Shown here piece by piece: positions 44,492 to 44,920 of a stretch of DNA of 64,000 nt. The stretch spans positions 62,001-126,000 of the forward strand of contig NZ_JADDKQ010000020.1 of NCBI RefSeq assembly GCF_016464425.1, read 5' to 3'. The translations under genes were made by a program, and so were the position numbers. A model generated the notes under the pieces. It was given only the letters and a program-made list of their open reading frames with translations, was not told where the DNA came from and ran no database searches. The stretch comes from Actinotalea solisilvae. GTDB taxonomy: Bacteria > Actinomycetota > Actinomycetes > Actinomycetales > Cellulomonadaceae. Numbering within the stretch: position 1 is the stretch's first letter; the number at the start of each line of letters is the position of its first letter.

Positions 44492-44545
44492 GGTGGCCGG
44501 AGCTCCGCCGCGTGGGGGAGACTGGTCACGGCCCGAGGCGGGCCA

Positions 44546-44584
44546 CCGGACGAGCGGCACCGTACCCGGACAGACACGACGGCG
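44546..44584 (+). ncRNA. Guanidine-III riboswitch (ykkC-III class)
   Basis: The segment opens CCGGACGAG, continues with GCACCGTACCCGG and ends with ACGACGGCG. From memory this follows the guanidine-III consensus, exemplified by the crystallised Thermobifida fusca aptamer, almost base for base. CCGG (44546-44549) pairs with CCGG (44565-44568), and the pseudoknot pairs CACCGT with ACGGCG with one A-C mismatch. It ends five bases before the GGGAGG Shine-Dalgarno of the gdx/SugE gene, so ligand binding would expose or hide the ribosome site. The downstream gene type is exactly the expected one. Confidence 0.85.
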
Positions 44585-44599
44585 TCCTGGGAGGCAGCC

Positions 44600-44920
44600 G
44601 TGCACTGGATCGTCCTCATCCTGTCGGGAGTGCTCGAGGCGGTGTGGGCCACGGCCCTCGGCCGCTCGGAGGGCTTCTCGCGACCCGGCCCGACCGTCGT
44701 CTTCGCGGTCGCGCTCCTCATGAGCATGGGCGGGCTCGCCTACGCGATGACCGCGCTGCCGGTGGGGACCTCGTACGCGGTGTGGGTCGCGATCGGGGCC
44801 GGCCTCACGGTGGTCTACGCGATGGCGACCGGGACCGAGCCGGCCTCCCTCCTGCGGGTGCTGCTCATCGTGGGGCTGATCGGGTGCGTCGTCGGGCTCA
44901 AGGTCACCTCGGGTCACTGA
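44600..44920 (+). CDS. gdx: Guanidinium exporter, SMR family (Gdx/SugE)
   Basis: The 106-residue protein has four membrane helices, with the essential Glu13 in LSGVLEAVWATALG, and GTSYAVWVAIGAG in helix 3, typical of the SugE/Gdx branch of small multidrug resistance proteins rather than EmrE. Gdx exchanges guanidinium for protons as an antiparallel dimer. The GTG start has GGGAGG 5 bases upstream, immediately after the guanidine-III riboswitch, which supports guanidinium as the physiological substrate. Confidence 0.93.
   Translation: MHWIVLILSGVLEAVWATALGRSEGFSRPGPTVVFAVALLMSMGGLAYAMTALPVGTSYAVWVAIGAGLTVVYAMATGTEPASLLRVLLIVGLIGCVVGLKVTSGH

Follow-up and report, generated by a model that had tools for sequence, protein, structure and literature searches.

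The short 5' leader of a gene for a Gdx-like guanidinium/H+ antiporter, located in a 64-kb stretch of Actinotalea solisilvae DNA (hereafter the window), very probably houses a guanidine-III riboswitch whose guanidinium-triggered pseudoknot raises translation of the gene. Sequence confirms that the element belongs to the guanidine-III family and the gene product to the SMR family; by analogy with characterised members, we predict that the element binds the ligand and acts as an ON switch at translation, and that the protein transports guanidinium. The element is an ordinary example of its kind: the family, the ligand pocket, the gene and the arrangement were all known already, and the locus adds one more member.

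Identity of the element and of the downstream gene

The window was scanned against all 4227 Rfam families, and RF01763 (guanidine-III) gave the sole match above the gathering score. The match covers the full model (1-67/67) with 48.8 bits, compared with a gathering score of 36 bits, at E 4.3e-7 (cmscan), and ends 11 nt before the start codon of the downstream gene. An initial annotation, made from the letters of the window, had named this riboswitch class and suggested an Rfam search as the check, and the significant full-length match bears it out. The three sequence blocks on which that annotation relied were located at 44546-44554, 44559-44569 and 44576-44584, and the Shine-Dalgarno sequence GGAGG lies, as it had counted, five bases past position 44584. 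The 39-base element that it described is present as the pseudoknot aptamer, but the riboswitch proper extends over the whole Rfam match and includes an upstream hairpin that had been left out (Table 1). A search of the whole genome (assembly G000: 4.3 Mb in 41 contigs, estimated contamination 8.17%) recovered the same locus with E 6.9e-9 and, for the two guanidine classes that it covered (-I and -III), found neither a second RF01763 locus nor a guanidine-I riboswitch.

Table 1. Features of the riboswitch and the gdx gene, in window positions
Feature	Position	Strand	Basis
Guanidine-III riboswitch, full Rfam model	44526..44588	+	cmscan RF01763
Upstream hairpin GGCCCG-AGG-CGGGCC	44530..44544	+	First stem of RF01763; also in the MFE fold
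Pseudoknot aptamer, extent as initially annotated	44546..44584	+	Numbering of the Thermobifida fusca crystal structure, available text of PMC5696562
P1, 4/4 pairs	44546-44549/44566-44569	+	Sequence on T. fusca numbering (same source)
Third strand	from 44550	+	T. fusca numbering (same source)
P2	44557-44563/44579-44585	+	T. fusca numbering (same source)
C6 and G7, predicted ligand contacts	44551..44552	+	Available text of PMC5696562; kept in 86/87 and 87/87 loci
A14, A-C mismatch partner of C39	44559	+	Sequence
G17, predicted ligand contact	44562	+	Available text of PMC5696562; kept in 87/87 loci
C39, A-C mismatch partner of A14	44583	+	Sequence
Shine-Dalgarno GGAGG (GGGAGG from 44589)	44590..44594	+	Sequence; similar layout in relatives
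GCCGU across the start codon, putative OFF-state partner	44597..44601	+	MFE folds; model only
gdx (sugE-like), 106-aa SMR protein, probable guanidinium exporter	44600..44920	+	PF00893; Gdx-Clo; residues

The gdx gene starts with GTG, separated by 5 nt from GGAGG, and is an open frame of 106 codons. Its product, encoded by the sole PF00893 gene found in the genome, matched this family with 63.2 bits (cut-off 23.7). Among solved structures its best relative is Gdx-Clo (6wk5; E 1.2e-18), with which it aligns over residues 1-104 and shares E13, W16, S42, Y59 and W62; the remaining differences are ordinary sequence divergence. Of these residues, we take Y59 to be a Gdx marker. W16 is kept in Gdx proteins and replaced by Gly or Ala in Qac proteins, according to the available text of PMC7695847. 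The best NCBIfam model for the product, SugE (NF008512), scored 83.2 bits and thus stayed under its cut-off of 126, and therefore the product is named here a Gdx-like SMR protein and not a SugE equivalog. In this form the SugE/Gdx assignment of the initial annotation is upheld, and by analogy with its relatives the protein is probably a guanidinium exporter.

SMR genes of relatives that are located away from guanidine-III were inspected by eye at 20 loci. The Gdx-type Glu-x-x-Trp motif (ExxWA) was seen in 15 of these (L206-L208, L210-L215, L219, L220, L223-L225, L231), and therefore Gdx-like SMR proteins without guanidine-III are common in the group.

Comparison with other guanidine-III loci

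For comparison, 87 loci scoring above the Rfam cut-off were collected, of which 51 came from a set of 99 related genomes that contains the window's own, 27 from a phylum-wide set of 296 genomes and 9 from contigs of named genomes. An SMR protein is encoded by the next gene in 79 of the 87, the window locus included (phmmer, E up to 1e-4). Conservation was compared at nt 1-9, 14-24 and 28-42. The window element keeps every one of these positions whose conservation is 99% or more, C6, G7 and G17 included, and departures from the majority base are confined to nt 14, 28, 33, 40 and 41. Position 33 is A in 81 of the 87 loci and C in six, i.e. the window and five others. A detail missed in the initial annotation is that its third block, ACGACGGCG with C33, is not the commonest sequence.

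Two observations were made in passing. Locus L032 (G087), which carries a GGAGGAG core and is followed by an SMR gene, is the only one of the 87 in which nt 6, the stacking base for guanidine, is G and not C, and is possibly a specificity variant or an error. Furthermore, A10 is found in the third strand at 15 of the 87 loci (e.g. L112, L136, L189, L190 and L196), and all 15 have A38 in P2, compared with 5/72 of the others (relatedness not controlled). The C15-A38 non-pair is present in 14 of these 15. It looks as though the C15-G38-G10 base triple had been exchanged as a unit.

Among the closest known systems is the guanidine-III riboswitch of T. fusca (PDB 5NWQ), in which C6, G7 and G17 are the ligand contacts according to the available text of PMC5696562, the source also of the following comparison. 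Both elements share the H-type pseudoknot, the four-pair P1 and the C6/G7/G17 pocket, and they are of equal length from nt 1 to 24. In the window element, by contrast, A14-C39 replaces G14-C39 and G12-U41 replaces a Watson-Crick pair, nt 10 and 11 of the third strand are C and G instead of G and U, and nt 33 is C instead of A. In addition, its connecting loop is one nt shorter, and it is separated from the ribosome-binding site by 4-5 nt, whereas this distance is 16 nt in T. fusca.

Mode of control

Of the mechanisms considered for the window leader, a translational ON switch ranks first. The class is described in this way in the literature, where protection from RNase E has been reported as well (PMC12186494, available text), and such a switch fits the layout, in which the aptamer abuts the ribosome-binding site. 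Accumulated guanidinium would stack on C6 and bind between G7 and G17. The third strand would thereby be fixed in the P2 triplex and the H-type pseudoknot stabilised, with the end of the pseudoknot predicted 4-5 nt upstream of the Shine-Dalgarno sequence. Folding of the pseudoknot would withdraw leader strands that otherwise pair over the start region, and the freed start region would allow increased translation of the exporter, which would pump guanidinium out. Shielding of the mRNA against RNase E may add to the effect.

A putative partner for such strands is the GCCGU block across the start codon, which could pair with ACGGC in the 3' strand of P2 (44579-44583) or with GCGGC at 44554-44558. 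Two folds of the window leader make use of this block and both exclude the pseudoknot. In one of them ACGGC pairs with GCCGU over the start codon (z +1.52 against shuffles), and in the other the strand GGACGAGCGGC pairs with the GCCGU block and with UCGUCC in the gene (z +1.30); neither minimum free energy fold is stabler than shuffled sequence. In-line probing found P1 and P2 already paired without ligand (PMC5696562, available text), and an OFF hairpin that involves a P2 strand may therefore be minor.

Release of the ribosome-binding site was further addressed by folding 63 leaders with the aptamer held out of pairing, which lowered the mean cost of opening this site from 9.6 to 6.3 kcal/mol. 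The gain was 3.3 kcal/mol with the own aptamer and 2.7 kcal/mol with swapped aptamers, and 158 of 5000 permutations, in which relatedness was not controlled, reached a value as high. For the window leader the gain was 0.8 kcal/mol, under its swapped-aptamer mean of 1.9 kcal/mol, and for L048, the sister locus in a genome of the same genus (G007), it was negative (-4.1 kcal/mol). Pairing probabilities of the Shine-Dalgarno sequence in the window leader stayed near-constant, with clear opening only at its 3' edge and at the U of the start codon. Taken together, the folds reveal no expression platform: for release of the ribosome-binding site they give a weak signal in the family and a negative one at the window locus. 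Control may run through access to the start codon or through the stability of the mRNA.

Pairing of matched versus swapped segments was assessed in six tests with 5000 permutations each, relatedness not being controlled. Values as low were reached by 344 permutations for pairing of the P2 strand with the ribosome-binding site, by 2593 for the third strand with this site, by 1551 for the third strand with the ORF, by 3108 for P2 with the ORF and by 3179 for the P1 segment with the ORF. For pairing of the segment around the P1 5' strand (four nt upstream plus CCGG) with the ribosome-binding site, 5 of 5000 permutations were as low, this being one of the six tests. An anti-Shine-Dalgarno sequence at the P0/P1 junction could underlie the latter value, but as the outcome of one test in six it is not claimed.

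Other candidate pairings were rejected. The triplet GTC directly precedes the start codon in 41 of the 79 leaders that combine the riboswitch with an SMR gene and could pair with the invariant G34-A35-C36, which would provide a family-wide OFF hairpin. However, GTC occupies the same place at 6 of 20 SMR loci away from guanidine-III (by eye; a few start assignments are doubtful), and it was dismissed as a specific signal; the background of 51/1199, with spurious frames among those counted, is probably an underestimate. Likewise, UCGUCC in early codons, with which the invariant GGACGAG could pair, is present in 26 of 79 riboswitch genes versus 6 of 20 controls, which looks like codon usage.

A rival reading is that the aptamer acts chiefly as a pseudoknot roadblock against RNase E and not by freeing the ribosome-binding site. 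In its favour, thermodynamic support for release of the Shine-Dalgarno sequence is weak at the window leader, and Richards and Belasco (2021), cited in the available text of PMC12186494, described RNase E protection by guanidine-III. Yet the start codon lies at most 30 nt from A35 in 66 of the 79 SMR leaders, a position that a roadblock does not need, and we regard an action chiefly of this type as unlikely. The translational ON switch is thus retained as the preferred reading of the leader.

The A14-C39 mismatch

The initial annotation had noticed one A-C mismatch in the pseudoknot helix and derived from it a possibly weaker affinity. The mismatch (A44559/C44583) is real in the window sequence, but a G-U wobble (44557/44585) had been missed: over the seven pairs of the crystal structure, P2 comprises five Watson-Crick pairs, this G-U and the A-C, and an extra G-C pair is possible outside at 44556/44586. 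A14-C39 occurs in the window locus only (1/87), and G14 is found in 9/9 other loci of the same genus. Among these, L048 resembles the window locus in its third strand, in C33 and in the gene start GTGCACTGG, and the Gdx proteins of the two loci are identical at 84 of 105 residues without gaps. Over nt 1-42 the two elements differ at nt 14, 28 and 41 only, with the G14-C39 pair being intact in L048. The simplest account is that A14 probably reflects a recent G-to-A change in the lineage of the window; as this is one genome, an assembly error is possible.

In the family as a whole, at least one non-pair within the five core pairs of P2 is present in 20 of the 87 loci, 15 of which are accounted for by C15-A38. 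When P2 is counted as seven pairs and no bulges are allowed, the number of loci with a non-pair rises to 58. Computed as a simple duplex, P2 of the window has -8.8 kcal/mol, as compared to -12.3 kcal/mol for L048 and -12.5 kcal/mol for T. fusca; the median is -9.6 kcal/mol, and 34 of the 87 loci have a weaker P2 than the window. A14-C39 is thus not exceptional within the family. Because non-pairs in P2 are common and the computed stability is mid-range, there is no ground to predict lost or weakened binding; the weaker affinity that had been proposed is neither supported nor refuted. The same applies to the boldest reading of the locus, namely that A14-C39 retunes the switch, which is neither supported nor excluded.

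These data also bear on the idea that the riboswitch has decayed, i.e. that A14-C39, the G-U closing pair and C33 abolished the guanidine response and left gdx constitutive. The restriction of the mismatch to the species of the window, with G14-C39 in the sister locus, and the lower computed stability of P2 relative to that locus would be in line with decay. Against this, the conserved positions are all intact, C33 recurs elsewhere, and the C15-A38 non-pair, one step away in P2, is tolerated in 15/87 loci; moreover, SMR genes still follow in 16 of the 20 loci with a core non-pair, and gdx itself has kept its open frame. Decay is therefore quite improbable, and a functional guanidine-III riboswitch remains the preferred interpretation.

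A chance resemblance in a genome of 76% GC can in practice be regarded as already excluded: although the high GC content (75.8% in the window) lifts the background of G+C-rich motifs and the spaced core of the three blocks, with up to 3 mismatches allowed, was matched at least once in 23 of 100 shuffled windows (mean 0.28 matches), the window contains one exact match, the E value holds against all Rfam families, strand, distance and gene are all correct, and 78 of the 86 other loci likewise precede an SMR gene. As loose matches to the core do occur in shuffled windows, the significance of the element rests on the Rfam score.

Guanidine-III upstream of genes other than SMR genes

The next gene does not encode an SMR protein in 8 of the 87 loci. 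At three of these, L016 (G051), L040 (G017, from the genus of the window) and L042 (G030), guanidine-III is followed by a gene for an 86-88-residue CBU_0592-family protein (40.3-47.6 bits with NF047864, which has a cut-off of 25), and PF00893 was not found in any of the three genomes. In a class sample of 394 genomes, 18 close CBU_0592 homologs (71 bits or more) were identified, and guanidine-III is located directly upstream of ten (L245, L246, L247, L248, L250, L251, L252, L254, L255 and L258). Eight of the ten riboswitches score above the Rfam cut-off, and two reach 34.7-34.8 bits with the core intact. Five of the ten loci come from one genus, and together they span 5 of the 10 genera; the matched part of the CBU_0592 gene of L258 is interrupted by a stop, and this gene may be defective or wrongly assembled. 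For the other eight close homologs, a search that accepted E values up to 1 gave no guanidine-III match, nor was guanidine-III detected upstream of any of the 20 remote homologs that were scanned (12 of 14 weak matches in the class sample plus 8 from the relatives sample). Within the class sample alone, the difference between close (10/18) and remote (0/12) homologs gives a Fisher p of 0.0016, relatedness not being controlled.

It is quite conceivable, if somewhat short of probable, that in G017, a sibling species of the window's genus, and elsewhere in the class guanidine-III controls this unrelated membrane protein in place of Gdx, and that the CBU_0592-family protein is a guanidinium exporter not described so far. 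In the literature collection searched, no paper bears the name CBU_0592. Absence of SMR genes was considered as support for an exporter function and was discarded: SMR genes are present in 6 of the 10 class-sample genomes with the riboswitch-CBU_0592 pair and missing in the other 4, as compared to 5 of 8 without the pair, which makes no rule.

Further genes were observed next to guanidine-III. An arginase-family gene follows at L174 and L180, a gene for a metallo-beta-lactamase-fold protein at L112 (Streptomyces sp. SID486 contig), and one for a PF06695 small multidrug export protein at L189 (G319) and L196 (G106), the latter possibly representing another guanidine exporter.

Implications

The window locus contributes a natural variant, well supported and accompanied by the expected exporter, to a riboswitch class that is already characterised. 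Together with L048 it forms a near-identical natural pair (A14 versus G14, with two other base differences) suited to probing the weight of a single P2 pair, and the wider comparison shows that non-pairs in P2 are common in the guanidine-III family. This wider comparison matters more than the window locus itself, as it flags the CBU_0592-family proteins as candidate guanidine exporters.
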